Assembly: GCF_014205225.1 (NCBI RefSeq)
Contig: NZ_JACHNB010000001.1
Location: forward strand, 6,491,501-6,555,500
Source: Actinoplanes octamycinicus
GTDB taxonomy: Bacteria; Actinomycetota; Actinomycetes; Mycobacteriales; Micromonosporaceae
DNA: 64,000 nt
Direction: 5' to 3'
Shown: piece by piece, positions 41,859 through 61,329 of the stretch
How positions within the stretch are numbered: position 1 is the stretch's first letter
How the letters are laid out: every line of letters starts with the position of its first letter
Made by a program: the position numbers and the translations under genes
The notes under the pieces: generated by a model
What the model was told of the DNA's origin: nothing
Database searches by the model: none
Seen by the model: only the letters and a program-made list of their open reading frames with translations

Positions 41859-41905
41859 TTCCTTCGTTGCCGAATCATCTCCGTCGACCTACAGTCGTAG
41901 TTAAG

Positions 41906-41922
41906 TGAACGGTTGGCGTTCA
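41906..41922. promoter_or_regulatory. Inverted repeat upstream of the Usp gene
   Basis: TGAACGGTTGGCGTTCA has perfect 6-base arms around GTTGG and lies about 30 bases before the start codon of the universal stress protein. Confidence 0.4.
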
Positions 41923-41953
41923 GTATGGTGGCGGCGCGTCGGAGGTGGCTGCT

Positions 41954-42385
41954 GTGCGTCAGCGAGTGATGGTTGTCGGCATCGACGGCTCCGAGTCCTC
42001 CCGGCGGGCCGCCGCCTACGCCGTCGGCCTGGCCGGGCGAGAGGGCGCCAGGCTGATCGGCGTCTATGTCCGCCCGCTGCCGAGCAGCATGGTGTCGATG
42101 GCCGACACGTCCGGTGCGGCCGCCGCGTCGGTCGTCGCCTCGCAGGACGAGGTGGTCACCGAGTTCCACGACACGCTGCGGCGCGAGCGGACCCGGTCCG
42201 GCGTCGACATGGAGATCGTCGTGCGGCAGGGCGACCCGTTCACCGAGCTGTGCCAGGCCGCCAACGAGACCTGGGCGGACGCGGTCATCGTCGGCCGCTC
42301 GGAGAGCCTGCTGCACCGGATCGCCGGCTCGGTCGCCCAGCGCCTGGTCCGTTGCGGCCGCTGGCCGGTCACGGTCGTCCCCTGA
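41954..42385 (+). CDS. Universal stress protein (UspA family)
   Basis: A 143-residue Usp with the N-terminal strand VMVVGIDGSESSRRAAAYA and C-terminal WADAVIVGRSES. The usual ATP-binding motif G-2x-G-9x-G-S is only partly kept (GRSESLLHRIAGS), so nucleotide binding is doubtful. The GTG at 41954 follows GGAGG at the proper spacing; an upstream GTG is too close to that site. It probably takes part in dormancy or redox stress responses. A hairpin element follows its stop. Confidence 0.88.
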   Translation: MRQRVMVVGIDGSESSRRAAAYAVGLAGREGARLIGVYVRPLPSSMVSMADTSGAAAASVVASQDEVVTEFHDTLRRERTRSGVDMEIVVRQGDPFTELCQAANETWADAVIVGRSESLLHRIAGSVAQRLVRCGRWPVTVVP

Positions 42386-42393
42386 AAACCCCA

Positions 42394-42428
42394 GATCAAG
42401 ACCGGTTTGCGGTACGGCCGGAGCACCC
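42394..42428 (+). repeat. 3'-end hairpin element, copy A
   Basis: GATCAAGACC, then 7 variable bases, then GGTACGGCCGGAGCACCC. It starts 8 bases after the Usp stop. The variable core forms the stem ACCG/CGGT. Outside the core it is identical over 28 positions to copy E at 52497 (reverse strand). It pairs with copy B as an inverted repeat. Confidence 0.7.
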
Positions 42429-42511
42429 GCCCAGGGTTGCCCACGGCCGATGTCGCGTATGGCCGATGTCTCGTGGCGGGCACTCCGGACTGACGTGGCC
42501 GGTGGTGGGCC

Positions 42512-42542
42512 GCTGCGGTCGTACCGGAAATCGGTCTTGATC
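42512..42542 (-). repeat. 3'-end hairpin element, copy B
   Basis: On the minus strand GATCAAGACC, then GATTTCC, then GGTACGACCGCAGC. It lies 7 bases after the stop of the tetR gene ending at 42549. The stem is ACCG/CGGT. About 26 of 31 bases match copy A, in inverted orientation. Confidence 0.7.
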
Positions 42543-42548
42543 TCGGGG

Positions 42549-43193
42549 TCAGACCGGCGGGCGGAACAGCGGCGTCACGCGGGCCCGCGGATCGGGGGCG
42601 ACCACCGCGTGCAGCAGGAAGTCGACCAGCTGCCGGGCGTGCCCGGCGGCCTCGGCGGCCAGCGCGGCGCGCCGCTCCGGCGGGGTGGTCAGCGCGTGCA
42701 TCATCGCCCCGCCGAGCAGGGTGTTGAGCAGCAGGGTGACCGAGGTCGCGGCCGGCAGCTCGCCCCGGTCGATGCCGCGGCGCACGATGGCCCGGGCCGC
42801 CTCGATCTGCGAATTGCGCAGCTGCACGTAGTGCTCGGCGACGCCCGGAATGCTCGCCGCCTCCAGGTTCAGCCGCAGCGCCGCCCGCCCGGCCGGCCCG
42901 GTGTAGATCTCGATGATCTGGGTCGCCAGCTGCACCAGGTCGCCGCGGAGCGTGCCGGTGTCGACATCGCTGACCGTGGCCAGCCTGCCGGTCAGCGCGT
43001 CGGTGAGCAGCTCCTCCTTGCTGGTCCAGCGCAGGTAGAGGGTGGCCTTCCCGATCCCGGCGCGGCGCGCGACCGTCTCCATCGCGAACCCGGCCCACCC
43101 GCCGTCCCCGAACACGTCCAGGGCGGCCTGGCTGATCCGGCGGTCCACCTCCGGGTCACGCGGCCGTCCCGGGCCCGCTGCCGTAGCGCTCAT
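42549..43193 (-). CDS. TetR family regulator
   Basis: A 214-residue TetR protein. The HTH is RISQAALDVFGDGGWAGFAM with KATLYLRWTSKEELL at the end of the DNA-binding domain. The helical ligand domain is of unknown specificity. The ATG at 43193 is preferred; a long upstream frame is antisense to the next gene. Upstream (43213-43234) TGCTGA and TCAGCA form an inverted repeat with a 10-base centre that may be its operator. The neighbour at 43235 is in the same direction, with only 41 bases between them. Confidence 0.92.
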   Translation of the reverse strand: MSATAAGPGRPRDPEVDRRISQAALDVFGDGGWAGFAMETVARRAGIGKATLYLRWTSKEELLTDALTGRLATVSDVDTGTLRGDLVQLATQIIEIYTGPAGRAALRLNLEAASIPGVAEHYVQLRNSQIEAARAIVRRGIDRGELPAATSVTLLLNTLLGGAMMHALTTPPERRAALAAEAAGHARQLVDFLLHAVVAPDPRARVTPLFRPPV

Positions 43194-43212
43194 GGCGAAT
43201 ACTCTCGCACAT

Positions 43213-43234
43213 TGCTGAACGTTCCTCGTCAGCA
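43213..43234. promoter_or_regulatory. Possible operator upstream of tetR
   Basis: Arms TGCTGA and TCAGCA around a 10-base centre, 20 bases before the TetR start. The repeat abuts the end of the HAD-domain gene. Confidence 0.35.
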
Positions 43235-43744
43235 TTAAACCGCGCCGAGGAACGCCGCTATCCGCCTGATGTCCCTGGGCCGGAGCCCGCAACTGCCGCT
43301 GGGCGCGACCAGCAGCGCCCGCCCGTCCCGCTCCGCGTCGCCGAGCCGCGGGTGCCGCTCGCGCGCCGCGCCGATCTCCTCGTCGTCCGTCCACACCAGC
43401 GGCCGTCCGCTGCCCAGCACCTCCAGCGCGGCGCGCGCCTTCATCTCGGCCCAGCTCAGATCGTTCGCCCGCGCCGGGAACGCGGTCCGGAACGGCCCGG
43501 CTGCCAGCGCGTCCTGAAGGTTCTGGATGTCGGTGCACCAGGTGCTGCACCACCGCACCTCAGCGAGCCGATCGTGGTGGATGCGGTTGATCGCGTCGAC
43601 GACACGAGGCTCCCACCGGATCCGATAGGAGTATTGATCGGCCGCCGACCACACCTGCACGACATGCGGTTCCCGCCGCCAGCCCGCGTAGTAGGCGTTG
43701 ACCACCCCGTCCACGTCGAGAAGCCACACCGGACGCCCGCTCAT
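43235..43744 (-). CDS. HAD-domain protein (Swiss-Army-Knife RNA-repair type)
   Basis: A 169-residue HAD-fold protein starting SGRPVWLLDVDGVVNAYY, with the two motif-I aspartates. It contains CSTWCTDIQNLQDAL and a late acidic motif VWTDDEEIGAA. The pattern resembles the stand-alone HAD domain found in Swiss-Army-Knife RNA-repair proteins and many actinomycete homologues; the substrate is not known. The ATG at 43744 is chosen over an upstream start with a charged tail. Confidence 0.75.
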   Translation of the reverse strand: MSGRPVWLLDVDGVVNAYYAGWRREPHVVQVWSAADQYSYRIRWEPRVVDAINRIHHDRLAEVRWCSTWCTDIQNLQDALAAGPFRTAFPARANDLSWAEMKARAALEVLGSGRPLVWTDDEEIGAARERHPRLGDAERDGRALLVAPSGSCGLRPRDIRRIAAFLGAV

Positions 43745-43824
43745 GTACGCCTCTTCATCCCTCCGCCGCATCGGTTCCGCTGAAGATCAAGGCGGTGACG
43801 CCATTCGCTAAACCACGATGTCGG

Positions 43825-43839
43825 TGAATGCAACATTCA
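43825..43839. promoter_or_regulatory. Palindrome in an AT-richer control region
   Basis: TGAATG-CAA-CATTCA has perfect 6-base arms. It lies in a 286-base region (43745-44030) of markedly lower GC than the rest of the window. A second weaker repeat, GTGAA/TTCAC, lies at 43920-43938. Both are upstream of the small membrane protein gene. Confidence 0.4.
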
Positions 43840-44030
43840 TCCCTACTCCTTCGTCTTTCTTTCCGTCCCGCCATGCTGTTTCGGACCCTGTCGGCTCCGT
43901 ACCGTGGAGACGTCGGTCGGTGAATGAAACAAGTTCACGCACAAACGAAACGGCACCCGCCTTGCCCGCGGATGCCGCCTTTCGTCCACCCACCCGCGGA
44001 CCCGCTGAGAGCCGAAGGGAAGGTAGCCCC

Positions 44031-44297
44031 ATGACCGTAACAAGAGGTCCCGACTCCAACAACGACAACTCTGCCGCCCGAACACATCCGGCAGTGCCGG
44101 GCGTTCCCCGTGCGGTCTGGATCGGCTTCGCTCTGATCACGGGTTTGCTGGTCGGCGTGGCCGCCGGCGTGTTGTCGGCAGCCGGCGGTGTCGCCGTCCC
44201 GCTGGCCGTCCTTGCCGGTGGCGGAGCCTGCGGAAGTGCCATTCTGCTCGTGCTGGCGATCGTCCGATATGCCACCGAAGGGTGGCAGTCCTCCTGA
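44031..44297 (+). CDS. Small membrane protein, 88 residues
   Basis: A short protein with a polar N-terminus of about 25 residues and two hydrophobic helices (VWIGFALITGLLVGVAAGV and VPLAVLAGGGACGSAILLVL). No family is recognised. The ATG at 44031 follows AAGGGAAGG. The long AT-rich leader upstream, with palindromes, suggests specific regulation. Confidence 0.65.
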   Translation: MTVTRGPDSNNDNSAARTHPAVPGVPRAVWIGFALITGLLVGVAAGVLSAAGGVAVPLAVLAGGGACGSAILLVLAIVRYATEGWQSS

Positions 44298-44642
44298 TCA
44301 CGATGCGGTATTCCGACGCGACTGTGGATGGGTGCGCCGCGCGGTGGTTCTCGCGGATCATGCGCAGTTCTATGTTCAGGATGTTGCTGGGCAAGGGGGG
44401 ACTGAGCAGAGCGAGGATTACGACTGGCCCGAGGTGTGGTCTCGCACCGGCCGGCAAGCCCGCCGACGCCGGCGCGTCCCGTCGAGCCCGGGGCGTATCG
44501 CGCCTACCACCTGGACCTGTGGCCGAGCGCCGCAGTGACCGGCGTCGCGGTCATCCAGCGCGGAGACCGGGACGACGCGGCCCCTGGGTCGATGAGCCCG
44601 ATGACAGATGCGCAGTGGACGCTCGACCCGCCGGACGCACAG
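44298..44642 (+). pseudogene. Possible decayed gene
   Basis: This 345-base interval has no intact gene. Two neighbouring frames give protein-like segments, VVLADHAQFYVQDV in one and VEPGAYRAYHLDLWPSAAV in the other, as expected if one gene had suffered a frameshift between about 44430 and 44470. No family can be named. Confidence 0.3.
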
Positions 44643-45467
44643 TCATTCGTGGCCGAACCCGGCGACCAGCTGGGCGAGCGAGGCGGAATCGGTCAGCGGC
44701 ATCAGGTGGCCGGCGCCGTCGATCGTGGCGACCGTGGCGCCCGGGATCAGGCCGGCGAGGTGGGTGATCAGCCGGTGGACCGGGGGAGGGCTGGCGTCGC
44801 CCTGGACCAGCAGGACCGGAGGGCGCACCTTTCCCAGGTCGGCCGGCTCGACGGTCCAGGCGTCGACGGCGGGCATCTCCTCGGCGAAGAAGTACCGGCT
44901 GCGGGCGACCGCGTCGGCGACCGGCGCGACGCCGAGCGTCTCGGTCATCACCCGGCGGTGGCCGGGACCGCAGACCAGCGTCATGAACGTGTCGAAGGCG
45001 GCCGGCAGATCACCCCGTGCGGCGGCCGCCATCACCGAGCCGATCGCCGGACCGAACGCGGCCCGCAGCAACTCGTGGTCGACGGGGTCGACGAGCGGCG
45101 CGACCAGCGGCGGCTCGCACAGGGTGAGGGTGCGGACCGCCTCCGGGTGGTCGAGGGCCAGTTGGAGCGCCACTGTGGCTCCCGACGAGTGGGCGACCAC
45201 GTGCGCGGGTGCGGCGCCCAGGTGGTCGAGCAGTGCGGCGGCGTGCTCGCTGTGGCCGGCGACGGTCAGTCCGGCGGGTGCCGGGACACCGGTGTACCCG
45301 GCGCGCACCATCCGGATGACGCGGTGGTCCCGCAGTGCCGGCTCGGCGGCCAGCGGCGTGAACCAGTCGGCCAGCCCGCCGCCGTGGATCAGCAGCACGG
45401 GCTCGCCGTCGCCGCCGGAGTCGGTGTAGGCGACGGCGCGCCACCGGGTCAGAGTCGTCTGAGTCAT
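44643..45467 (-). CDS. Alpha/beta hydrolase
   Basis: A 274-residue alpha/beta-fold hydrolase. The oxyanion segment is LLIHGGGLADWFTPL, the nucleophile elbow is VVAHSSGATVALQLA, and the late histidine is in IDGAGHLMPL. The elbow reads AHSSG instead of GxSxG, which is still compatible with a serine nucleophile. Substrate unknown. It lies 24 bases after the VOC gene and is probably co-transcribed with it under the divergent TetR. Confidence 0.9.
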   Translation of the reverse strand: MTQTTLTRWRAVAYTDSGGDGEPVLLIHGGGLADWFTPLAAEPALRDHRVIRMVRAGYTGVPAPAGLTVAGHSEHAAALLDHLGAAPAHVVAHSSGATVALQLALDHPEAVRTLTLCEPPLVAPLVDPVDHELLRAAFGPAIGSVMAAAARGDLPAAFDTFMTLVCGPGHRRVMTETLGVAPVADAVARSRYFFAEEMPAVDAWTVEPADLGKVRPPVLLVQGDASPPPVHRLITHLAGLIPGATVATIDGAGHLMPLTDSASLAQLVAGFGHE

Positions 45468-45491
45468 GGTTCGTTCCTTCCGCGATGAGGA

Positions 45492-45875
45492 TCAGTCGGC
45501 GTAGAGGCGGATCTCGATGCCGTCCGGGTCGTGCAGGCCGACCAGCACCGATCCGCCCCGGTGCCCGGTGAGCACCCCGCCGTGCGGCTGGCCCAGCTCG
45601 TCCAGCCGCCGGCGCCACTGCTGGACGCCGTCCCGGGTCGGCACCCGGAGAGTGAGCAGGTCGAAGCCGGCCACCGCCGCGGCCCGAGCCGGGTCGTGGC
45701 GCAGCGCCAGGCCGAGCGAGCCACCGGCATCGCTGAGCGCCAGCCCCTTGACCACGCCGTCCTCGGTGAACTCGATGTCCACCCGCAGGCCGAGCACGGA
45801 CGTGTACCACCGGCGGCTGCGGTCGAGGTCGGCGACCGGGAGTTTGACGTGATGAACGCCGGACAGGTCGGGCAT
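45492..45875 (-). CDS. VOC family protein
   Basis: A 127-residue VOC protein with HHVKLPVADLDRSRRWYTSV at the N-terminus and VGLHDPDGIEIRLY at the C-terminus, where the Glu is the likely metal ligand. It is the first gene of a two-gene operon with the alpha/beta hydrolase, divergent from a TetR regulator. Two CTAG-armed palindromes lie in the shared region, so it is the likely regulated target. Confidence 0.9.
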   Translation of the reverse strand: MPDLSGVHHVKLPVADLDRSRRWYTSVLGLRVDIEFTEDGVVKGLALSDAGGSLGLALRHDPARAAAVAGFDLLTLRVPTRDGVQQWRRRLDELGQPHGGVLTGHRGGSVLVGLHDPDGIEIRLYAD

Positions 45876-45889
45876 CGGGCCACCCTTCG

Positions 45890-45905
45890 CTAGAAGCGCC
45901 TCTAG
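45890..45905. promoter_or_regulatory. TetR operator copy 1 (CTAG-armed)
   Basis: CTAGAAGCGCCTCTAG is a 16-base palindrome with CTAGA/TCTAG arms. It is repeated in improved form at 45913; together they fill the VOC/tetR divergent region. Confidence 0.7.
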
Positions 45906-45912
45906 TGAGTTA

Positions 45913-45928
45913 CTAGAGTAGGCTCTAG
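45913..45928. promoter_or_regulatory. TetR operator copy 2 (CTAG-armed)
   Basis: CTAGAGTAGGCTCTAG has perfect 6-base arms. It ends 3 bases before the tetR ATG and contains the TAGGCT -10-like box, so binding would silence tetR itself. Confidence 0.7.
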
Positions 45929-45931
45929 CGA

Positions 45932-46606
45932 ATGACGGACGGCGTCAAGCGAGCGACGAAACCCGACAGCGCCCCCGGCCCCCGCCGCACCCGGGCGGAG
46001 CAGGCCCGGGCCACCCGCCGGCGGATCGTGGCCGCGGCCGCCGAGCAGTTCCTCGCCCACGGCTACGGGGCGACGCTGCTGGACCAGGTCGCCGAGCGGG
46101 CCGGCGTCGCCGTGCAGACCGTGTATTTCCACTTCGGCAACAAGCGCACCCTGCTCAAACACGTGATGGACGTGGCGGCGGTCGGCGACGACGAGCCGTT
46201 GCCGCTGCTCGACCGGCCGTGGATCCAGCGGATCCGGCAGGAGCCCGACCCGCGGCGGATCATCGAGCTGTGGGTGGCCAACGGCCGGGAGATCCTGCAC
46301 CGGGTGGCCCCGCTGATGCGGGTGATGCGCGGCGCCACCGGCACCGACCCGGAGCTGGCCGCCCAGTGGCAGGTCAACCAGCAGCAGACCCGCGCCGCGC
46401 ACGGCCTGCTCGCCGAGCTGCTGGCGGCGCGCGGCGCGTTGCGCCCGGGGCTCGACGTCGACCAGGCTCGCGACATCGCCTTCGCGATCGGCAACGTCGA
46501 GACCTACCTGCAGTTCGCCGACGTCTGCGGCTGGACACCGGAGCAGTGGCAGGAGCGGATCACCGGCACGCTCGCCGCCGCACTGCTCCACGGAGCCGGC
46601 TGTTGA
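45932..46606 (+). CDS. TetR family regulator of the VOC/hydrolase operon
   Basis: A 224-residue TetR repressor with a basic 25-residue N-terminal extension. The HTH is RRRIVAAAAEQFLAHGYGAT, ending AVQTVYFHFGNKRTLL. The ligand domain is undefined. The likely leaderless mRNA and two adjacent palindromes indicate autoregulation and control of the divergent VOC and hydrolase genes. Confidence 0.92.
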   Translation: MTDGVKRATKPDSAPGPRRTRAEQARATRRRIVAAAAEQFLAHGYGATLLDQVAERAGVAVQTVYFHFGNKRTLLKHVMDVAAVGDDEPLPLLDRPWIQRIRQEPDPRRIIELWVANGREILHRVAPLMRVMRGATGTDPELAAQWQVNQQQTRAAHGLLAELLAARGALRPGLDVDQARDIAFAIGNVETYLQFADVCGWTPEQWQERITGTLAAALLHGAGC

Positions 46607-46632
46607 CCTTGCCGAGTCGCGGTGCCTAGTGT
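46603..46632 (+). promoter_or_regulatory. Promoter of the CBM2-like gene
   Basis: TTGACC (46603-46608, overlapping the tetR stop) and TAGTGT (46627-46632) are separated by 18 bases, a good sigma-70-type match. Transcription would start about 35 bases before the ATG at 46675. Confidence 0.45.
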
Positions 46633-46674
46633 GTGCTCGTTCACATATATCGACACAGGACGGTACTTCTTCCT

Positions 46675-47337
46675 ATGGCGCGTTCCGGGTTCCGGGAGGG
46701 CGGCTTCCGCGACGGCGTACGGGATCTGCTGCCCTGGGCGCCCACCGTCGTGGGTGTCAGCGTCCTGCTGTCGATGCTGGTCCTGACCTTGATCCGGCTG
46801 TCCCCGGCCGAGCACCGCGACGACCTCACGCTCGACCCGGTCCCGCCGCCATCGCCGCCGTTGAAGACCGCGATCGTCGCGCCGTCCCCGGCCGCCACGA
46901 CGCCGTCGTCCGCGCGGCCCCCGGTCACGCGGTCCGCCTACTCCCGGCGGCCGGTCACCTGGTCGCCGTCGACCGCCACCCCGTCGCCGCGGCCCACCAC
47001 GACCCGCCCCGCACCCCCGGCGGTCACCGGCCGTTACGGCGTCGTCGGCACCTATGACGCCGAGTTCATCGGCGAAGTCACCATCAGCAACGTCACCGGC
47101 GAGCCCCGGGACTGGACGGTCACGCTGCGCTTCCCGGCCAACGTCGGCGACCTGCGCACCTCGTGGGTCGAGTCCGCCCCGCAGGCCACCCTGAGCCGCT
47201 CCGGCGACACCTTCGTCTGGCGGTCCGGCGTGCCGGTCGAGCCGAGGTCCAGCGTGGTGCTCCGCTTCCAGTTCGCCCGAACCGGCACCGGCGACCGCCC
47301 CGCCACCTGCACGGTCAACGCCACGCGCTGCACCTGA
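46675..47337 (+). CDS. Membrane-anchored protein with CBM2-like domain
   Basis: A 220-residue exported protein. It has a basic N-terminus, a single hydrophobic anchor (PTVVGVSVLLSMLVLTLI) and a Pro/Ser/Thr-rich linker (about 60-120). The C-terminal beta-sandwich resembles a bacterial cellulose-binding module of family 2 (EVTISNVTGEPRDWTVTLRF; end TCTVNATRCT). The aromatic surface residues of true CBM2 are sparse, so carbohydrate binding is not assured. It probably sits on the outer face of the membrane. Confidence 0.78.
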   Translation: MARSGFREGGFRDGVRDLLPWAPTVVGVSVLLSMLVLTLIRLSPAEHRDDLTLDPVPPPSPPLKTAIVAPSPAATTPSSARPPVTRSAYSRRPVTWSPSTATPSPRPTTTRPAPPAVTGRYGVVGTYDAEFIGEVTISNVTGEPRDWTVTLRFPANVGDLRTSWVESAPQATLSRSGDTFVWRSGVPVEPRSSVVLRFQFARTGTGDRPATCTVNATRCT

Positions 47338-47434
47338 CCGGCGACCGGAGCACGCGGAACGGTCAGGTCCGCTCGGGCTCCGCCGATCATGCCGTCTCGG
47401 CTACTCTCCAGGCACTCGATCGCAGGAGGCACCA

Positions 47435-47638
47435 ATGGGTCTGTCGGGCCGGGACTGTCCGGACTGCCGCCGCAGCGTCCGCGAGCCGTTCGAGAAGACG
47501 GTCACCGGACGTGAGGTCTGTCCGGACTGCGCCAACGCCCTGTTCATGGGCTCAGCCGCCGGCGCGATCACCGGCGACGCCGGTTCCGGCTACGGCGTGT
47601 GGGCCATGCTCATGCGCAAGATCCGCCGCAACAGCTGA
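47435..47638 (+). CDS. Small zinc-ribbon protein
   Basis: A 67-residue protein with two CPDC knuckles (DCPDCRRSV and VCPDCANAL) that should bind one zinc, followed by a Gly/Ala-rich tail. The ATG follows a strong GGAGG. The function is unknown; such ribbons bind nucleic acid or other proteins. A 3'-end hairpin element lies just after its stop. Confidence 0.75.
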   Translation: MGLSGRDCPDCRRSVREPFEKTVTGREVCPDCANALFMGSAAGAITGDAGSGYGVWAMLMRKIRRNS

Positions 47639-47644
47639 CCGCCA

Positions 47645-47671
47645 GGACAAGACCCATTTCCGGTACGAGGT
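47645..47671 (+). repeat. 3'-end hairpin element, copy C
   Basis: GGACAAGACCCATTTCCGGT followed by ACGAGG, starting 6 bases after the zinc-ribbon stop, in the same orientation as the gene. The left arm has one change that weakens the stem. Confidence 0.65.
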
Positions 47672-47748
47672 AAGCGGGTGTGCGCGGTCCGTTCCGCGCG
47701 CCCGGAAAGCGCGGGGAAGGGCAACTGCTTCGACAGGCGGCGGCGAGA

Positions 47749-47820
47749 AGCGGCGGCGGTGGGGAGCGGCGGCTTCGGCAAGCGGCGGTGGACAGCGGCT
47801 GCTCCGAAAGGCAGCGGCCG
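47749..47820. repeat. Short GC-rich tandem-like repeats
   Basis: AGCGGCGG or close variants recur at 47749, 47765, 47781, 47794 and 47813, about every 16 bases, in an intergenic stretch between the zinc-ribbon gene and a convergent GAF-like gene. No gene is seen here. Confidence 0.4.
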
Positions 47821-47861
47821 TGGGCGTCCGCCCCGGAACGCGCGCTCGGTGGCCCTGCGGA

Positions 47862-48290
47862 TCACGCCGGTCGGCCGAGGATGGTGAGGTCGCGGCGGCG
47901 GATGGTCCGGGACAGTGCGGCCATCGTCTCGTAGAACGGCTCGTCGGCCGGCTCGCCCAGCCGGACCAGCCGCCCGATCTGCGCCCCGACCCGGGGCAGC
48001 AGCTCGGCCACCGGCGCGGACTGCCGGAACGGCCGGTCGTGGTGCAGGCACAGCACCCCGCTCCGATGCTCGTCGACCGGCAGCGGGACGCTGACCGACG
48101 CCGTCGGGCACTCGAGGCCCGTTCGCGGGCACTCGGGCCGGCCGAAGCTCGCCGCGGCGATGACTCGCTCGCCGGCGGCGATCCGGATCGTGGCGGCCGC
48201 CGACATGCTCTCGCCCACCATCCGGGCGATCACCCGCAGGTCGCCGGCCAGGACCCGGTCGGCGTCGGAATCGGCGCGGCTGCTGATCAC
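47862..48290 (-). CDS. GAF-like domain protein
   Basis: A 142-residue soluble protein. Its pattern (IARMVGESMSAAATIRIAAG, then VSVPLPVDEHRSGVLCLHHD) resembles a compact GAF sensor domain with two cysteine-bearing loops (ECPRTGLECPTA). There is no output domain, so it may act on a partner. The GTG at 48290 follows a strong GAGGAG. It lies 106 bases after the acyl-CoA ligase gene on the same strand. Confidence 0.55.
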   Translation of the reverse strand: MISSRADSDADRVLAGDLRVIARMVGESMSAAATIRIAAGERVIAAASFGRPECPRTGLECPTASVSVPLPVDEHRSGVLCLHHDRPFRQSAPVAELLPRVGAQIGRLVRLGEPADEPFYETMAALSRTIRRRDLTILGRPA

Positions 48291-48396
48291 GGATTCTCCT
48301 CGGGCTGCGGGGACGGTGGACTGGCCCGACCATCGCCCCGCGCCCGGGTTTCCTGAAGCCTTCCGGCCAGGACGGGACCAAGGTCCCGAACCGCCC

Positions 48397-50019
48397 TCAG
48401 TCCGGCAGCCGGTACCCGGCGAACCGGTCGCGCAGCGCCTTCTTGGAGAACTTGCCGACGCTGGTCTTCGGCACCTCGTCGATGAACTCGATCGCGTCCG
48501 GCAGCCACCACTTGGCGACCCGCGGCGTCAGGAACTCCAGCAGCTCGTCCGCGGTCACCGCCGCGCCCGGCTTGCGCACCACGCAGGCGAGGGGCCGCTC
48601 CGACCACTTCTCGTGCGGGACGCCGATCACCGCCGCCTCGGCGACCGCCGGGTGCGCCATCAGCTCGTTCTCCAGCTCCACCGAGCTGATCCACTCGCCG
48701 CCGGACTTGACCAGGTCCTTGGTCCGGTCGACCAGGCGCACCGAGCCGTACCGGTCGATCGCGGCGACGTCGCCGGTCTTCAGCCAGCCGTCCGCGGTGA
48801 ACTGGGCGTCGCCCTCGCCCCGGTAGTAGTCCCGGGCGATCCACGGGCCGGCCGCCTGCAGCTCACCGGTCGCCGTGTCGTCCCAGGGCAGTTCCTCCCC
48901 GGTGTCCGGGTCGGTGATCCGCAGCTCGACCAGCGGCGCGGCGACGCCCTGCCGGGCCCGGGCGTCGGCCTGCTCGTCCTCGGTGCGGCCGTCCAGGTGC
49001 GAGCGCGGGCTGCCCACCGTGGCGACCGGGGACGTCTCGGTCATGCCCCAGGCGTGCAGCAGCGGGAGCCCGATCGCGGCGCGGTACGCCTCGGACAGCG
49101 CGCGCGGAGCGGCCGAGCCGCCGCAGGCGACCACCCGCAGCGCGGACAGGTCGTGCGCGCCGAGCAGCGGCAGCATGCCCATCCAGATGGTCGGGACGCC
49201 GCCGGTGACCGTGACCCGGTGCCGGGCGAGCTGGGCGGCGATCGCCTCCGGCTGCATGTTCGGGCCGGGGAAGATCAGGTCGCTGCCGGCCAGCACCGCG
49301 CCGTACGGGATCCCCCAGGCGTTGGCGTGGAACATCGGCACGACCGGGAGCACCACGTCCCGCTCGGACAGCCCGAACGCGTCGGCGGTCAGCGTGAACA
49401 GCGAGTGCAGCACCGCCGACCGGTGGCTGTAGACCACGCCTTTCGGGTTGCCGGTGGTCCCGGAGGTGTAACACATCGCCGCGGCCCGGTTCTCGTCGGC
49501 GACCTCGAACCGGCCGGTGACCGGGTCCGCGGCGGCGAGCAGCGTCTCGTAGTCGTGCACCCGCGGATCGTCCGGGATCTCGCAGGCCGCCCCGTCGTCG
49601 ATCACCACGATCGCCCGGACCGTGGCCAGCTGGTCCATCAGCGGCCGGAACACCGGCAGCAACGACCGGTCGACGAAGACCACCTCGTCCTCGGCGTGGT
49701 TCACGATGTAGACCAACTGCTCGGCGAAGAGCCGGATGTTCAGTGTGTGCAGCACCCGCCCGGTGCACGGCGCGGCCAGGTAGAGCTCCAGATGCCGGTC
49801 GGTGTTCCAGCAGAAGGTGCCGACCCGCCCGCCGGCGGAGACGCCGAGGGTGTCGAGCATGGTGGCGAGCCGCCGCACCCGGCCGGCCCACTCGGCGATC
49901 GTGGTGTCCCGTTCCCGGCCGACCTCGGCGGTGACCAGGCGTTTGTGCCCGAAGAGCTGCTCCGCCCGGTGGAACAGGTGGGGCAGGGTGAGCGGCCGGT
50001 CCTGCATCAATCCGAGCAC
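48397..50019 (-). CDS. Long-chain fatty-acid-CoA ligase family (AMP-forming)
   Basis: A 540-residue acyl-adenylate-forming enzyme of the FadD type. The P-loop-like motif is MCYTSGTTGNPKGV, the core A5 region contains WGMTETSP, and the C-terminal catalytic lysine is in KTSVGKFSKKALR. It activates a carboxylate with ATP and transfers it to CoA. The GTG at 50019 follows GGGAGG; an upstream ATG gives a tail without family similarity. It is divergent from a second, paralogous ligase across a 74-base gap containing GTTA/TAAC arms around ATGGGGTC. Confidence 0.92.
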   Translation of the reverse strand: MLGLMQDRPLTLPHLFHRAEQLFGHKRLVTAEVGRERDTTIAEWAGRVRRLATMLDTLGVSAGGRVGTFCWNTDRHLELYLAAPCTGRVLHTLNIRLFAEQLVYIVNHAEDEVVFVDRSLLPVFRPLMDQLATVRAIVVIDDGAACEIPDDPRVHDYETLLAAADPVTGRFEVADENRAAAMCYTSGTTGNPKGVVYSHRSAVLHSLFTLTADAFGLSERDVVLPVVPMFHANAWGIPYGAVLAGSDLIFPGPNMQPEAIAAQLARHRVTVTGGVPTIWMGMLPLLGAHDLSALRVVACGGSAAPRALSEAYRAAIGLPLLHAWGMTETSPVATVGSPRSHLDGRTEDEQADARARQGVAAPLVELRITDPDTGEELPWDDTATGELQAAGPWIARDYYRGEGDAQFTADGWLKTGDVAAIDRYGSVRLVDRTKDLVKSGGEWISSVELENELMAHPAVAEAAVIGVPHEKWSERPLACVVRKPGAAVTADELLEFLTPRVAKWWLPDAIEFIDEVPKTSVGKFSKKALRDRFAGYRLPD

Positions 50020-50093
50020 GTGCGCCTCCCGACATCGATCGCCACCGTTAATGGGGTCTAACAATCCGGTGCCGGGCGGGTCAAGATGGGGTC

Positions 50094-51707
50094 GTGGACT
50101 CGCAGCTCAGCATCAGTACCGGCCCGGCCGAGCCGCCGCTGCTGGATCGCACCATCGGCGCCGACCTGCTGGCCACCGTGGCCCGGCACGGCGAGCGCGA
50201 GGCGCTGGTCGACTGCGCCTCCGGCCGCCGCTGGAGCTATCTCCAGCTCCGCGCGATCGTCGACGAGGTGGCGCTCGGCCTGCGCCGGCTCGGCGTGGCA
50301 AAGGGTGACCGGGTCGGGATCTGGGCGCCGAACTGCCCGGAGTGGGTCTTCATGCAGTACGCGACGGCCCGCCTCGGCGCGATCCTGGTGACCATCAACC
50401 CGGCGTACCGCACCCACGAGCTGCGGTACGTGCTGCAGCAGTCCGGTATCCGTACCCTGGTCGCCGTCCCGGCCTTCAAGACCTCGGACTACGCCGCGAT
50501 GATCGGCGAGACCCGCGACGAGTGCCCGCAGCTGCGTGACGTGGTGCTGATCGGCGAGCCGTCCTGGGCCGCGCTGACCGCCGGCGGCGACGACCCGGCG
50601 GTGCTCGACGAGATCGAGGCGACCCTGCACCCGGACGACCCGATCAACATCCAGTACACCTCCGGCACCACCGGGTTCCCGAAGGGCGCGACGCTCTCGC
50701 ACCGCAACATCCTGAACAACGGCTACCTGGTCGGCGAGCTGATCGACTACACCGAGGCGGACCGGGTCTGCATCCCGGTGCCGTTCTACCACTGCTTCGG
50801 CATGGTGATGGGCAACCTGGCGGCGACCAGCCACGGCGCGGCGATGGTGATCCCGGCGCCCGGGTTCGACCCCGGCCTGACCCTGCGGGCCGTCGCGGGG
50901 GAGCGTTGCACCTCGCTCTACGGTGTGCCGACCATGTTCATCGCGATGCTCCACCATCCGGACTTCGCCGGCTTCGACCTGTCCTCGCTGCGCACCGGGA
51001 TCATGGCCGGCTCGCCCTGCCCGGTCGAGACGATGAAGCAGGTCATCGACCGGATGGGAATGACCGAGGTGTCGATCTGCTACGGCATGACCGAGACCTC
51101 GCCGGTGTCCTGCCAGACCCGCACCGACGACAGCCTGGAGCGCCGGGTGGCCACGGTCGGCCGGGTCGGCCCGCACCTGGAGGTGAAGGTGGTCGACTCG
51201 CACGGCGCGACCGTCCCGGTCGGCGAGACCGGTGAGCTGTGCACCCGCGGCTACTCGGTGATGCTCGGTTACTGGGAGCAGCCGGACAGGACCGCCGAGG
51301 CGGTCGACGCGGACGGCTGGATGCACACCGGCGACCTGGCCGTGATGGACGCCGACGGCTACTTGCGGATCACCGGCCGGATCAAGGACCTGGTGATCCG
51401 GGGCGGGGAGAACGTCTACCCCCGCGAGATCGAGGAGTTCCTGCTCACCCATCCGGACATTCTGGACGCCCAGGTGATCGGTGTCCCCGACGAGAAGTAC
51501 GGCGAGGAGGTGATGGCCTGGATCCGGATGAAACCGTCCGCCACCCCCCTCGACGCCACCACCCTGCGCGCCTACTGCTCGGGCAAGCTGGCCCACTACA
51601 AGATCCCGCGCTACGTCCGCATCGTCGACGACTTCCCGATGACGGTCACCGGCAAGGTCCGCAAGGTCGAGATGCGCGAGATCGCCACCCGCGACCTGAC
51701 CACTTGA
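50094..51707 (+). CDS. Fatty-acyl-CoA synthetase family (AMP-forming)
   Basis: A 537-residue second acyl-CoA ligase. It has [32 protein letters not shown] and the C-terminal hinge/lysine region [18 protein letters not shown]...[12 protein letters not shown]. It is only moderately similar to its divergent neighbour, so probably of different chain-length or acid specificity. The GTG at 50094 begins VDSQLSIS. Adjacent divergent ligases may share one control site. Confidence 0.93.
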
Positions 51708-51708
51708 C

Positions 51709-51730
51709 GGGGACCCCTTTCCGGTACGAA
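51709..51730 (+). repeat. 3'-end hairpin element, copy D
   Basis: GGGGACCCCTTTCCGGTACG, starting 1 base after the acyl-CoA synthetase stop, in gene orientation. The left half (GATCAAG) is replaced here by GACGGGG, while the stem and right half are kept. Confidence 0.6.
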
Positions 51731-51734
51731 CCGG

Positions 51735-52472
51735 TCACACGCAATCCCAGCAGAACCGGCCCTCCCGCCGGTCGACGCTGAGGAACGCGTAGCCGGTGCC
51801 CCCGCCGAAGTTCAGTGCGAACGGGTCGTCGTCCGCTCCCTCGGCGCCGTCCAGCTGGAAGAAGAACCGCCACGAGGCGTCCAGCTCCGGCGGTGTCCAC
51901 GGCTGCCAGAACAGCGGCTCGCCCCCGGCATAGCTGCGGCAGTCGACGTCGCCGCGCTCGTCCACCGGCTCCCCACGGCGGGCCGCCTCCTGATAGGCGA
52001 CCTCCCGCTCGAACTCCTGCACCGCCGGCTCGGCGGGTTCGCGCAGGTCGAGGTGCAGCTCCACCGGCACTCGCTGAAACCAGTCGGCGCCGCGCCGCCA
52101 CAGTGCCGGCCCGGTGCGCCTGGGCACGCCCGTCACGAACGGCGGCACCCGGCCGTCCGGCTGCACCAGCAGCGCGTTCTCCCCGCCGTCCAGGTCGTAG
52201 GTGCCGTCCTCGTCGCTGACGAAGAGGTAGGCCAGCGCCAGCTCGGGCCCCGGCAGCGGGAACTGGCCGACGAAGGTCATCGGCTCCGCGGAGGAGCGCG
52301 AGACCGGCCAGAGCGGCTCGGCCAGCCAGTGCGGCTGCCCGCCGAGCTTCGCGACCGGGCCGGTGACCGGCTCGGTGGCGGGCCGCCACGACATCTCCCG
52401 GCGGGGCGTCAGCCAGCGGCTGAACGGTCCGTCTGCCGACGTCACCAGTGCGGACTGTGCCAACCACGCCAT
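51735..52472 (-). CDS. DUF1963 (YwqG-like) protein
   Basis: A 245-residue soluble protein with KLGGQPHWLAEPLWP and PMTFVGQFPLPGPELALAYL, the signature of DUF1963/YwqG proteins. The C-terminus reads NFGGGTGYAFLS...FCWDCV. The function is unknown. It is convergent with the acyl-CoA synthetase gene. It lies downstream of the EAL gene with a hairpin element filling the gap. Confidence 0.8.
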   Translation of the reverse strand: MAWLAQSALVTSADGPFSRWLTPRREMSWRPATEPVTGPVAKLGGQPHWLAEPLWPVSRSSAEPMTFVGQFPLPGPELALAYLFVSDEDGTYDLDGGENALLVQPDGRVPPFVTGVPRRTGPALWRRGADWFQRVPVELHLDLREPAEPAVQEFEREVAYQEAARRGEPVDERGDVDCRSYAGGEPLFWQPWTPPELDASWRFFFQLDGAEGADDDPFALNFGGGTGYAFLSVDRREGRFCWDCV

Positions 52473-52496
52473 GGCCGGTGAGCCTACGACACGAGG

Positions 52497-52531
52497 GGGT
52501 GCTCCGGCCGTACCCGAAGCGGGTCTTGATC
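52497..52531 (-). repeat. 3'-end hairpin element, copy E
   Basis: On the minus strand GATCAAGACC, then CGCTTCG, then GGTACGGCCGGAGCACCC. It starts 5 bases after the EAL-gene stop. The stem is ACCCG/CGGGT, a compensated change relative to ACCG/CGGT in copies A and B. Confidence 0.7.
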
Positions 52532-52536
52532 TTGAG

Positions 52537-53649
52537 CTATTTGTAGCGGGTGAGGAGGGCCCGGGCCACGGCGGCGACGGTGGGGACGTCGTCGCAGGTG
52601 ATCAGGCCGGTGCCGGGGCGGACGGCGAGGGCGCGGCCGTGGCCCGCGCCGAGCGCCACCACGGTCAGCTCGCCGGGGACCGGCTCGTCGACGCTGATCA
52701 GGCTGCGGGCGCGGGCGGCCAGCTCGGGCAGCGGACGGCCTGGATCGCCGGCCACGATGATCAAAGCGGTGTCGGTCAGGCCGTCGAGGAAGGCGGTGAC
52801 CGTCGCGTCGTCGGCCGGGACGACCGGACCGTGCCCGGCGGCGGTCGCGAACGGTGTGCCCGGCGGCTGGTGGAAGCCGGGCCGCGGCGCCCGCAGCTCG
52901 GCGGGCTGATACCGGTGATCGGCCTGCTCGATCGGCCCGGGCCGGCCGAACAGCCAGCCCTGCCCCCAGTGCGCGCCCAGATCGAGGGCCGCGCGCAGGT
53001 GCTGCTCGGTCTCGATCCCCTCGGCGATCACCCGCGCGCCGGTCCGCAGCGCCTCGGCCCGGACCACCGCGGCCACCTGCCGGGCGTGCGCCGAGTCCGG
53101 GTCGCGGACCACGCTCATATCCAGCTTGATCACCTCCGGCTCGACGAGCGGCAGGAAGGCGAGCGACATCGGGTCGACCCCGACGTCGTCGAGGGCCAGG
53201 CCGTTGCCCCAGCCGTGGACCATCCCGGCGAGGCGCAACAGACTTCCCGGTACGGCCGGCAGCGCCCGCTCGGTGAACTCCAGGACCATCCGGAACGGCA
53301 GCCCGCCGTCCAGAATCTCCAGCAGCCGCGCGGACAGCGGCTGGTCGAGCACGCTCGGCTCGGCGTTGACGAACAGCAGCGGCGGCGGGACGGCGGCCGT
53401 GACGGCGCTCTCCAGGGCCCGCTCGCAGCACAGCATGTCCAGGGCGCCGAGGCGGGCGGCCTGGTGCGCGGCGGCGAAGAGCCGGTCCGGGAACTCCAGG
53501 GCGGTGCCGGCCGGGCCGCGTGCCAGCGCCTCCAGGCCGACCACGCCGCCGGTGGCGAGGTCGACGATCGGCTGGAAGACCGGGAACACCAGCCGGTCCC
53601 GCAGGACTTCGCTGATCGACCGGTCGGCGGTTCGCACCATGCTGCTCAC
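52537..53649 (-). CDS. EAL-domain protein (c-di-GMP phosphodiesterase or receptor)
   Basis: A 370-residue protein. Residues 10-245 are an EAL domain. The signature EAL is at 40-42 (VVGLEALARGP), with LVFVNAEPS-like, LALDDVG (loop 6), IKLDM and AEGIET motifs present. The metal and catalytic residues look intact, but loop 6 lacks the standard DFGTG ending (DDVGVDP here), which often lowers activity. The C-terminal 110 residues form another sensor-like domain of unknown type. No membrane segment. It may oppose the diguanylate cyclase at 30406 (inference). Confidence 0.88.
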   Translation of the reverse strand: MSSMVRTADRSISEVLRDRLVFPVFQPIVDLATGGVVGLEALARGPAGTALEFPDRLFAAAHQAARLGALDMLCCERALESAVTAAVPPPLLFVNAEPSVLDQPLSARLLEILDGGLPFRMVLEFTERALPAVPGSLLRLAGMVHGWGNGLALDDVGVDPMSLAFLPLVEPEVIKLDMSVVRDPDSAHARQVAAVVRAEALRTGARVIAEGIETEQHLRAALDLGAHWGQGWLFGRPGPIEQADHRYQPAELRAPRPGFHQPPGTPFATAAGHGPVVPADDATVTAFLDGLTDTALIIVAGDPGRPLPELAARARSLISVDEPVPGELTVVALGAGHGRALAVRPGTGLITCDDVPTVAAVARALLTRYK

Positions 53650-59790: not shown

Positions 59791-61329
59791 TCAGCGGATC
59801 AGGGCGGCCGGCAGCTGGTCCAGGCCCAGCGAACCGACCTCCATCGCCCGGCGGTGGAAGGCCCGCTGGTCCCCGCGGAACGACGAACGCGCGGCCAGCC
59901 AGACGCGCTCGCCGACCTTGTAGGTGAGTGCCTGCCCCGGCCGGCCCAGGTAGCGCGCCAGCTCCCCGGCCGCGTAGCCACCCTGGTGACACCGGTCCCG
60001 CAGGAGTTCCAGCGCCGCCTCCGGGGTCCACGACGGCTGCACGTGCAGGCCGATGTCGAGAACGACCCGGGCCGCCCGCAGCAGCTGCGAGGACAGGTAG
60101 CCGAACCGGGCGCCCGGCTGCTCGTAGAGCCCGAGCTCGTCCATGAACCGCTCGGCGTAGAGCGCCCAGCCCTCCTGGCAGCCGGACAGCCCGCCGAGCA
60201 GGTTGAGCCGCTGCCCGAGCCCGCCCCGGCAGGCCTCCGACCCGATCTGCAGGTGGTGGCCGGGCACGCCCTCGTGGTAGGCGATGCTGTAGGCGTACCA
60301 GGTGGGGAAGCCGGTCTGCCCCTCGGGCAGCAGCCACCAGACACGGCCCGGCCGGCTCAGGTCCCGCGACGGCCCGGTGTAGGCGGTCCCGCCGGACACG
60401 GTCACCCGCGACTCGATCCGCCGCAGCGCCGCCGGGATGTCGAAGTGCACGCCGTCCAGCCGCGCGGTGGTGGTCTCCAGCAGCTCCTGCAGCCAGCCGC
60501 CGAACTCGGCCCGGCTGTGCGGGGTGCCCGGCGCGTCCGGCCGGTCGAGCCGCTCGCGCACCTCCGGGACGGTCCCGCCCAGCGCTCTGGCCTCGGCGGC
60601 CAGTTCCGCCTCGATCGCGGTGAACTCGTCCCAGCCCCAGTCGTAGAGGTCGCGCAGGTCCGGCTCGCCGCCGAGGAAGGTGCGCACCCAGAGCGCGTAC
60701 CGCCGCGGCCCGAAGGCCTCGTCCGAGCGGGCCCGCGGGGCCAGCTCCGCGGTCAGCATCGCGGCGAATTTCCGGTACGCCTCGCCCGCCTCCCGCGCCG
60801 CCGCCAGCAGCGCCTCCCGCTGCGGGCCGGCACCGTACCGGTCCACCAGGGCCAGGTCGTCGTCGATCCAGTTCCGGCAGCGCTCCACCACCAGGTCCAC
60901 CTGGCGCCGGGCCGGCCGGTGACCGCGCCCGGCGGCCAGCACCAGGCTGCGACCGTACCCGTCCAGCGCGGCCGGGATCGCGGCCTGCCGCGCGCCGACC
61001 CGGGCCCAGCCCTCCTCGCGGGCCGCGCCGTCGGCGTCCCGGCCGGGCACCGCGGCCTCGACCGCCTGCCGGATCAGCTGCAGCGGGCCGGTCGCCGCCG
61101 CGTGCAGCTCGCGCAGGTCCTCCCCGGCCTCGTGGACGGCGAGCCGGGTGCGCAGCCGCTCGGCGAGATGCGCGTGCAGCGGGTCGCTCCCGGGCAGCGC
61201 GGTCAGCTCCCGCAGGGCGCGGGCGGCGAGGTCGGCGCGCGCCTGGTGACCCTCCGGGCTGTAGTCGGTGAGCCGGTCGGCGTCCTCGCCGATCTCGACC
61301 ACCGCCGCGCACGGGTCCAGGCGGGCCAC
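59791..61329 (-). CDS. DUF885 family protein
   Basis: A protein of about 512 residues. DUF885 proteins are predicted zinc metalloproteins with the HEGVPGHHLQ motif, seen here as YHEGVPGHHLQIGSE, plus QEGWALYAERF. The N-terminus is uncertain: the family's first helix (FADRLLSDVARLDP) lies over the end of a small upstream gene in another frame, and the only start codon nearby in this frame is a GTG at 61329, which cuts into that helix. An ATG at 61506 would overlap the whole small gene. Carboxypeptidase-like activity is suspected for the family but not proven. Confidence 0.82.
   Translation of the reverse strand: MARLDPCAAVVEIGEDADRLTDYSPEGHQARADLAARALRELTALPGSDPLHAHLAERLRTRLAVHEAGEDLRELHAAATGPLQLIRQAVEAAVPGRDADGAAREEGWARVGARQAAIPAALDGYGRSLVLAAGRGHRPARRQVDLVVERCRNWIDDDLALVDRYGAGPQREALLAAAREAGEAYRKFAAMLTAELAPRARSDEAFGPRRYALWVRTFLGGEPDLRDLYDWGWDEFTAIEAELAAEARALGGTVPEVRERLDRPDAPGTPHSRAEFGGWLQELLETTTARLDGVHFDIPAALRRIESRVTVSGGTAYTGPSRDLSRPGRVWWLLPEGQTGFPTWYAYSIAYHEGVPGHHLQIGSEACRGGLGQRLNLLGGLSGCQEGWALYAERFMDELGLYEQPGARFGYLSSQLLRAARVVLDIGLHVQPSWTPEAALELLRDRCHQGGYAAGELARYLGRPGQALTYKVGERVWLAARSSFRGDQRAFHRRAMEVGSLGLDQLPAALIR

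Follow-up and report, generated by a model that had tools for sequence, protein, structure and literature searches.

An oriented 11-base word behind stop codons and within genes of Actinoplanes, a possible DNA-level signal

A first-pass annotation of a 64,000-nucleotide stretch of the Actinoplanes octamycinicus genome (the window) proposed that five short hairpin elements lie just 3′ of stop codons and point the same way as their genes, which raised the question of whether such elements are RNA structures of transcript ends or something else. All five sites exist. Copy A (GATCAAGACCGGTTTGCGGTACGGCCGGAGCACCC, 42394..42428, plus strand, R1 score 44.3 bits), a TTTGC variant of the word described below, lies 8 nt 3′ of the stop of a universal-stress-protein gene (41966-42385) and forms a facing pair with copy B (core GACCGATTTCCGGTACG, 42508..42542, minus strand, 45.6 bits), itself 6 nt 3′ of the stop of a minus-strand TetR-type gene (3′ end 42549). 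Copy C (core GACCCATTTCCGGTACG, 47645..47679, plus strand, 33.8 bits) follows by 6 nt an in-frame TGA (47636-47638, read by eye) of a short open frame without a gene call. The core of copy D (GACCCCTTTCCGGTACG, start 51712, plus strand, 29.3 bits) is found 4 nt 3′ of the stop of an AMP-binding, acyl-CoA synthetase-like gene (50094-51707), and the model span of this copy (51706..51740) includes part of the stop. Copy E (GATCAAGACCCGCTTCGGGTACG, 52497..52531, minus strand, 39.0 bits) lies 5 nt 3′ of the stop of an EAL-domain gene (3′ end 52537). Placement behind a called stop in the direction of the gene was borne out at A, B and E (5-8 nt) and for the core of D (4 nt), and it was correctly noted that none of the five is followed by a U-run.

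The long pattern by which the elements had been defined, GATCAAGACC-N7-GGTACG, is exact only at A, B and E; C has two mismatches, and D, which is without the GATCAA half, was unmatched even at three. Allowing up to three mismatches, 8 matches were found in the window against 0.49 expected from shuffles, four of them at places other than the five sites and with 2-3 mismatches. The conserved part of the sites is an oriented 11-base word, TTTYCGGTACG, which in intergenic copies is extended more loosely over about 30 bp, in the approximate form (GATCAA)RACCNN-TTTYCGGTACG-CCCGGAGCNCCC. The statement that the remaining 50 kb held no copies is true of the exact long pattern but not of the word, since an exact TTTCCGGTACG without the extended flanks is present at 60769..60779 (plus strand), in the coding sequence of a minus-strand DUF885 gene (59791-61329).

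In the whole genome TTTCCGGTACG was counted 393 times and GACCNNTTNNCGGTACG 70 times, against 1 and 0 for the reversed controls, an overall density of about one word per 26 kb. Counts of TTTCCGGTACG varied strongly within the genus, from 5 to 403 per genome across 60 Actinoplanes genomes, and reached at most 15 words per genome in other genera of the family (113 genomes) and 9 in the rest of the phylum (197 other genomes). Among the genomes sampled, a raised copy number is confined to this genus.

Further statistics for the own genome (G000) were taken from a sample of 1.93 Mb (18.7%) drawn around covariance-model matches, and its densities are inflated because it was chosen in this way; that of the sister species (G348) was likewise drawn mostly around its copies. 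Comparisons of orientation, pairing and codon shuffling are internal to the sample. The whole-genome covariance-model search scored 150 of 13524 candidates, and genes were called by a codon-usage caller made for the analysis rather than taken from annotation. Of the 9-mers with 30 or more occurrences in that 1.93 Mb of own sequence, TTTCCGGTA was the most over-represented under an order-2 model (147 versus 3.4); under a maximal-order Markov model it fell outside the top 15 because its own sub-words are enriched. A replication-oriented word of the KOPS or Chi-like kind was rejected for want of strand bias along the chromosome: for the 182 sampled words no origin gave a replichore bias, the largest imbalance (18) being reached in 402 of 500 shuffles. 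Clusters of DnaA boxes did not locate oriC in the sample. No description of the word was found in the open-access literature of one library, where the word strings retrieved unrelated papers only, nor in the portions of the Actinoplanes terminator and repeat literature available there, and it is absent from passages of the Actinoplanes SE50/110 genome paper on repeats, terminators or intergenic regions.

The proposal of a repeated family that prefers, and is oriented at, the 3′ side of stops was supported by the 144 intergenic copies whose two neighbours were known. Among 101 copies whose 5′ side holds a sense stop, 46 lay no more than 12 nt from it, compared with 10 of 94 for antisense stops (p = 4e-8), and the spacing behind stops peaked at 5-6 nt (19 copies). 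Intergenic copies preferred 3′ ends and, most of all, convergent gene pairs, with 0.24 copies per convergent gap, 0.07 per tandem gap and 0.05 per divergent gap (gaps in overlapping stretches were counted twice); copies in convergent gaps lay closer to their own sense stop by 53:15. Tandem-antisense copies numbered 25 and divergent copies 18. Pairs within 400 bp in the sample were facing in 19 cases (11 within 60 bp) and diverging in none. The shorter GGTACG followed stops in sense and antisense, respectively, 107 and 60 times at 1667 stops in the own genome, 23 and 15 times at 468 in G348, and 1 and 3 times at 81 in G332, which together with G348 is the closest high-copy relative; at loci of other Actinoplanes species it was not enriched (2 sense and 2 antisense at 268 stops).

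The words are not confined to intergenic DNA. In 1.35 Mb of confident coding sequence, 24 exact words were found (10 sense, 14 antisense) where synonymous-codon shuffling predicted 0.6-1.1, and the neighbouring words CTTCCGGTACG (9 versus 7.3) and GTTCCGGTACG (9 versus 8.1) occurred at expectation. The G348 sample held 8 exact words in coding sequence against 0.0 expected, and in a 120-kb sample of G332 the 2 exact words were both intergenic. A looser count gave 26 words in genes, 21 of which lay away from the centre of the sampled stretch, and called genes contained 34 of the 182 sampled words. The 10 word-bearing proteins checked all had a Pfam domain above cut-off, and in 8 of them the word fell within a Pfam match (one of these 8 matches being below cut-off). 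Word density was nonetheless about 20-fold lower in coding (0.018 per kb) than in intergenic sequence (0.36 per kb). The annotation had named copies found equally inside genes and in both orientations as evidence against its proposal; enrichment within genes on both strands was indeed observed, yet alongside the preference for 3′ ends.

The hairpin itself fared less well. It had been claimed that the core varies while keeping a stem, and copy E, with ACCCG/CGGGT, does so, as does its G348 ortholog ACCCGATTTGGGTACG (ACCC...GGGT). Among 125 intergenic ACC-N7-GGTACG copies from the own and G348 samples, however, 56 were pairable against 53.4 expected, and the next inward pair was C:C in 50, G:C in 49 and C:G in 7. 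Pairing at the two informative stem pairs equalled the expectation of independence, giving no covariation (n=125), and the outer three pairs, with scarcely any variation on the 3′ side, carry little information. A hairpin in the single copy is therefore unsupported as a conserved feature, its pairing being no better than chance. No U-run follows the five sites and single copies are without a covarying hairpin, so they do not read as intrinsic terminators, and the Rfam matches in 41000-54000, three in all, were sub-threshold and lay away from the five sites.

Downstream folds of stop-adjacent copies were somewhat more stable than random intergenic DNA (p=0.0003) and not significantly different from those of other 3′ ends, a strong downstream hairpin being present at 14 of 39 near-stop copies and 36 of 150 control 3′ ends (MWU p=0.11). 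Antisense or divergent copies had a strong downstream fold in 5 of 40 cases and a strong upstream fold in 1 of 40. When 60-70 nt on each side were folded, hairpins appeared to go with stops and not with the word, and the idea of the motif as a constant element of a terminator hairpin was rejected. A purely 3′-end RNA element is unsupported because copies occur in genes on both strands, because others are divergent or antisense, and because strong folds track the stop codon and not the word. At one 3′ end (L040) the order stop-GGTACG-hairpin was widespread: of 15 relatives fetched, 12 had GGTACG close to the stop, and it was followed by a strong hairpin in 11 of 13 carriers, the own genome included. 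RNAalifold, run on those 11 of the 13 GGTACG-bearing ends that had a strong fold (A3), returned no consensus structure. Long hairpins between convergent stops can form where two copies face each other. Among 18 relaxed facing pairs, arm-to-arm covariation was clear only at the C/T position (14 the same versus 8.4 expected, reached in 2 of 500 shuffles), and overall arm identity was weakly raised, with a mean of 7.1/10 versus 6.5 when shuffled (shuffled maximum 7.3).

Comparison with relatives showed both retention and turnover. At ten sites selected for keeping the word in both species, the word was 95% identical, compared with 79% and 62% for the flanks. Since the search pattern lets only C/T vary, agreement at the remaining ten letters of kept sites is in part built in. 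The word of copy D reads TTTTCGGTACG in G348, with differing flanks. Thirteen exact own sites in stretches collinear with G348, between genes or at their edge (one, L043, at the 3′ edge of a called gene), were kept in 10 cases, degenerate in 1, absent in 1 and unclear in 1, as read by eye from the alignments. Copies within genes differ from their orthologs by substitution. At the junction of two conserved convergent genes, by comparison, G000, G348 and G332 carry a facing pair, the distance between the first stop and a shared anchor being 61, 74 and 87 bp; the same junction spans 10-24 bp in 16 of 19 other syntenic species and has fillers lacking the word in the other 3, indicating an insertion of 50-75 bp rather than point substitution. 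Two G348 copies have no counterpart in the own genome, where gaps of about 40 and 10 nt take their place.

A candidate mobilizing enzyme gave a mixed result. Matches to a Y1 (RAYT-type) transposase were found in the own genome (5), one of the genes about 650 bp from a word. Of the 6 genomes with the highest copy number 4 had such a match, compared with 11 of the other 54 (p = 0.03, post hoc). None was found in G332 or G348, and the word was absent from 12 of 12 fetched Y1 loci (mostly about 1.5 kb each side). The suggestion of a REP-like element is weakened by the two relatives without a match and by substitution within genes, though the distribution among the highest-copy genomes and the one insertion junction speak for it. 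A ComEC domain was present in 60 of 60 Actinoplanes genomes and therefore does not discriminate among them; the controls E. coli and C. glutamicum had it too, and in G332, the genome with most copies, it is split.

Taken together, TTTYCGGTACG looks like a word amplified and maintained at the nucleotide level in a clade of Actinoplanes, with hundreds of copies in the own genome and its closest relatives. Our tentative preference, possible rather than probable on these comparisons, is that it is a DNA-level signal behaving like a DNA uptake sequence and in part recruited to form hairpins where convergent genes meet. A sequence-specific protein would read the word on DNA, and the word would be kept by selection or by a biased transfer or recombination process, as DNA uptake sequences are. 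Copies would then build up in the most permissive places, just behind stops and between convergent genes, where the long hairpin of facing copies could serve as a bidirectional terminator-like end. Low density, rarity in genes and the G332 sample without in-gene words count against the uptake-like reading, as do the insertion junction and the commoner Y1 matches among the highest-copy genomes. An uptake-like process does not account for the sense orientation behind stops or for the 5-6 nt spacing, both of which point to a role at gene ends.

Such a role would follow if a factor bound the word, in RNA or DNA, and ended or processed transcripts or blocked polymerase from one side, facing pairs stopping both transcripts between convergent genes. 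The excess of sense stops, the greater nearness to them in convergent gaps, the excess in those gaps, the spacing peak, the exclusively facing pairs and the order kept at L040 all argue for this protein-dependent 3′-end signal. We consider it somewhat unlikely, given the enrichment in genes on both strands, the tandem-antisense and divergent copies, and near-stop copies that do not replace hairpins. A non-autonomous REP/MITE-like repeat with a stop-codon preference, moved by a transposase and paired into BIME-like units, would fit the inserted facing pair, the two copies missing by gaps, the variable copy number, the conserved flanks of about 30 bp and the Y1 matches in the highest-copy genomes; since G332 and G348 have no such match, the fetched Y1 loci lack the word (though one own Y1 gene is near a copy), in-gene copies differ by substitution, and the word is kept where flanks diverged, this origin appears unlikely. 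Very improbable is the explanation first favoured, a 3′-end RNA hairpin (ACC-N7-GGT) or atypical intrinsic terminator: the stem shared by copy E and its ortholog and the near-stop folds that beat random intergenic DNA are outweighed by absent covariation, C:C as common as G:C, folds like those of other 3′ ends and few in antisense or divergent copies, and the lack of an Rfam match.

Hundreds of kept copies, in and behind genes of one clade, imply a reading protein and a favouring process. To our knowledge, DNA uptake sequences have not been established in this phylum. A bolder version of the uptake-like reading, by analogy and rather unlikely as a whole, makes the word the first DNA sequence of an actinobacterium to drive uptake or recombination, by which Actinoplanes would recognize kin DNA, with species dialects in copy number and perhaps in form (TTTCC or TTTTC) and copies behind genes doubling as gene ends. 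Kin-DNA recognition in high-GC Gram-positives, or else a sequence-specific actinobacterial transcript-end factor, would if true be new as far as we know, and both readings are directly testable in Actinoplanes, whose species differ many-fold in copy number.

REP/BIME elements with RAYT are intergenic repeats near stops that form facing pairs and have lineage-specific copy number, all of which the word shares; it differs in that its single unit has no conserved palindrome, it is not strictly extragenic, in-gene copies arose via substitution, and the two closest high-copy relatives lack a Y1 match. Bidirectional intrinsic terminators resemble the facing pairs, with their long hairpins between convergent stops, but no U-run is present and most copies are single, without the hairpin. 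HIP1 of cyanobacteria is a palindrome linked to methyltransferases, whereas the Actinoplanes word is non-palindromic and oriented to gene ends. According to PMC4390886, HIP1 is a very over-represented short word, as the present one is, and is of low frequency in exceptional relatives. The DNA uptake sequences of Neisseria (DUS) and Pasteurellaceae (USS) are, like the present word, short, oriented and present in hundreds of copies. As described in PMC2397512 and PMC2346458, they are found within and between genes, often as inverted gene-end pairs that form terminators, and are kept while neighbours diverge; the spacing of Neisseria DUS is given in the former as about 1.1-1.5 kb. The Actinoplanes word is far sparser and far rarer in genes, and differs in its strong sense orientation, near-fixed spacing behind stops and actinobacterial host. 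It shares with DUS and USS genome-wide over-representation, presence in genes on both strands, close inverted pairs at gene ends and, at the ten sites compared, retention of the word next to changed flanks.

The 10.28-Mb genome of A. octamycinicus (G000, one contig) contained 393 copies of the 11-mer TTTCCGGTACG, a form of the oriented word TTTYCGGTACG (208 on the plus and 185 on the minus strand), against a single reversed control, and 70 copies of GACCNNTTNNCGGTACG against no reversed controls. No strand bias along the chromosome was seen for any choice of replication origin (182 sampled words). The covariance model R1 gave at least 149 matches in the genome, with 150 of 13524 candidates scored; 95 stretches of 20 kb were fetched around the best matches and, with the window (C1, positions 6491501-6555500), made up an own-genome sample of 1.93 Mb of unique sequence. 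Among 9-mers seen at least 30 times in this sample, TTTCCGGTA was the most over-represented (147 versus 3.4 under an order-2 model). A DnaA-box-like 9-mer, TTGTCCACA, occurred 41 times in the same sample, 26-fold over order-2 expectation, and was dispersed, not clustered.

All 60 sampled genomes of the genus carried at least five words. Counts were highest in G332 (403), G000 (393), G348 (247), G310 (234), G317 (160) and G315 (138), followed by G312 (113), G352 (104) and G328 (101), with fewer than 100 in each of the remaining 51; at the locus tested, G348 and G332 were the closest sampled relatives (90-91% identity). Words per genome numbered at most 15 in the family outside the genus (113 genomes of other genera) and at most 9 among 197 other genomes of the phylum, and a longer core exceeded three copies in G000 alone in an order-level sample of 298 genomes that included it. 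When named genomes were searched for exact matches to a motif version, seven stretches were returned, four of them from Actinoplanes; this search may have excluded the own genome and those very close to it.

At the five window sites (A to E) where the first-pass annotation had described a long pattern, that pattern was exact at three, carried two mismatches at C and was reduced to its core at D. With up to three mismatches allowed, eight matches were found in the window versus 0.49 expected from shuffles. The described placement beside stop codons, in the sense of the gene, was borne out: A, B, D and E lay 4-8 nt behind the stops of called genes (encoding a universal stress protein, a TetR-type regulator, an AMP-binding enzyme and an EAL-domain protein, respectively) and ran in the same direction, and C lay 3′ of an in-frame TGA ending a short open frame uncalled by the gene caller used. 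The word at D was kept in G348, and the segment displayed 3′ of the orthologous gene lacked it in G332, G319, G312, G310 and G344; the element at E was common to G000 and G348, in a form other than the exact word.

The own-genome sample held 182 words, 148 intergenic and 34 inside called genes. Both neighbours were known for 144 intergenic copies, of which 69 lay in convergent gaps (0.24 per gap), 57 in tandem gaps (0.074 per gap; 32 copies in sense and 25 in antisense orientation) and 18 in divergent gaps (0.052 per gap). A sense stop lay no more than 12 nt from the 5′ edge in 46 of 101 copies, and an antisense stop equally close to the 3′ edge in 10 of 94 (Fisher p = 4e-8), and convergent copies were closer to their own sense stop by 53 to 15 (p = 4e-6; 40 to 10 among unpaired copies). 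The first T most often stood 5-6 nt behind the stop (19 copies), so that the preceding ACCNN often abuts the stop codon. Word pairs within 400 bp comprised 19 facing pairs (11 within 60 bp), one tandem pair and no diverging pair.

Some own copies were embedded in more extended sequences that resemble one another (roughly 100 nt, with ...CGTGTCGTGCGGG or a close form at the end; e.g. 3296378, 3397615, 6852436, 7764615 and 10124949), apparently a distinct repeat class containing the word. About 20-30 nt upstream of many own copies away from stops stood GGTCCGCT or a close form (e.g. 919104, 7572720, 9255308 and 10124949), possibly a second conserved half. A second 3′-flank repeat, around AGGGGTGTCTC, was enriched in own 3′ flanks (e.g. 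downstream of 3449743 and 10010973).

The proposal that the variable core keeps a stem was not upheld, as pairable combinations equalled the expectation under independence when each pair was varied in turn. The pair inside ACC/GGT was C:C in 50, G:C in 49, A:C in 14, C:G in 7, G:G in 4 and T:C in 1 of 125 intergenic copies from the own and G348 samples, which places copy E, with C:G, in a minority; the outer pairs were almost invariant on the 3′ side and hence uninformative on covariation. Strong folds (z below -2) followed 14 of 39 stop-adjacent copies versus 36 of 150 control 3′ ends without GGTACG, and 13 of 24 paired copies. Sense copies farther from a stop had a strong fold upstream in 13 of 41 and downstream in 3 of 41, and the 40 antisense or divergent copies in 1 and 5, respectively. 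Hairpins accompany gene ends and word pairs rather than the single word; a single-copy hairpin as a conserved feature is not supported by the pair counts and the fold distribution.

Facing pairs can form hairpins. The convergent junction of L050, a locus compared across species, carried a palindromic pair in the three closest species, with arms covarying at one position (TTTCCGG/CCGGAAA in G000, TTTTCGG/CCGAAAA in G348 and TTTACGG/CCGTAAA in G332). Measured from the first stop to a shared anchor within the opposing gene, the distance was 61-87 bp in these three. Of 19 other species with synteny there, 16 had 10-24 bp, with stops almost in contact, and G355, G324 and G311 had 59-88 bp, where the word was missing; eight further fetched loci were non-syntenic there and fall outside the 19. 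Over 18 facing pairs from G000, G348 and G332, the arms agreed at the C/T position in 14 versus 8.4 shuffled (2 of 500 shuffles), and whole-arm identity was weakly raised relative to shuffled arms.

Words inside genes were counted in confident coding sequence (1.35 Mb, ends trimmed) and compared with synonymous-codon shuffling. The exact word occurred 24 times (10 sense, 14 antisense) versus 0.6-1.1 shuffled, and one-mismatch words, pooled, 64 times versus 25.5; the exact word gave 8 versus 0.0 in the G348 sample and 0 versus 0.0 in the small G332 sample. Two neighbour words made frequent by codon usage were at expectation (CTTCCGGTACG, 9 versus 7.25; GTTCCGGTACG, 9 versus 8.1), supporting the null model. 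One other neighbour, TTCCCGGTACG, was also raised (13 versus 0.6) and may be another form in which the word is accepted. By a looser count there were 26 words inside genes, 21 of them not central to the drawn stretch. All ten searched proteins of word-bearing genes had a Pfam domain above cut-off, indicating that the genes are real, and the word fell within a Pfam match in eight of the ten, one match (TetR_C_33) being below its own cut-off.

Across the stretches where G000 and G348 are collinear, intragenic words showed substitutions relative to the ortholog or were kept (L040:19888), and intergenic words were kept with altered flanks, decayed, or were gained or lost by gaps. Thirteen exact own sites fell in these stretches: by eye, ten were kept, one was degenerate, one absent and one unclear. 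Across the ten, selected as kept, identity was 95% in the word, 79% in the upstream and 62% in the downstream flank. At the 3′ end of L040, 12 of 15 fetched relatives had GGTACG close to the aligned stop and 3 lacked it.

Given its enrichment on both gene strands, nucleotide-level retention and orientation at gene ends, the preferred interpretation of the word is a DNA signal that a putative protein reads. The strongest rival, a protein-dependent gene-end signal, is compatible with DNA-level reading, and both could hold together. It is also possible that a transposase spreads the word as a repeat, as the insertion at L050 and the higher frequency of Y1 (RAYT-type) transposase genes among the six genomes with most copies (4 of 6 versus 11 of 54 others) would suggest; against this, G332 and G348 are without Y1, and the words inside genes arose by substitution.

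Natural transformation is reported in an actinobacterium, Micrococcus luteus. The competence protein ComEC was present in 60 of 60 genomes of the genus but split in G332, the genome with most words. In four of the 60, namely G332, G350, G330 and G323, interruptions of roughly 35, 38, 10 and 20 kb, respectively, divided the domain at one common point, near model positions 26-34; comEC looks like a recurrent integration site for mobile elements.

Passages of two reports (PMC2397512, PMC2346458) describe DNA uptake sequences as present in hundreds of copies, also inside genes, as forming inverted pairs that act as terminators, and as conserved amid more divergent flanks. The word, read as a DNA signal, is like them in its similar copy number, intragenic copies, inverted pairs and retention amid diverging flanks, but differs in density, gene-end orientation and actinobacterial host. 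Because of these differences, because an uptake role would be drawn by analogy and because ComEC is split in G332, no membership is claimed, and the word is described as acting somewhat like DNA uptake sequences.
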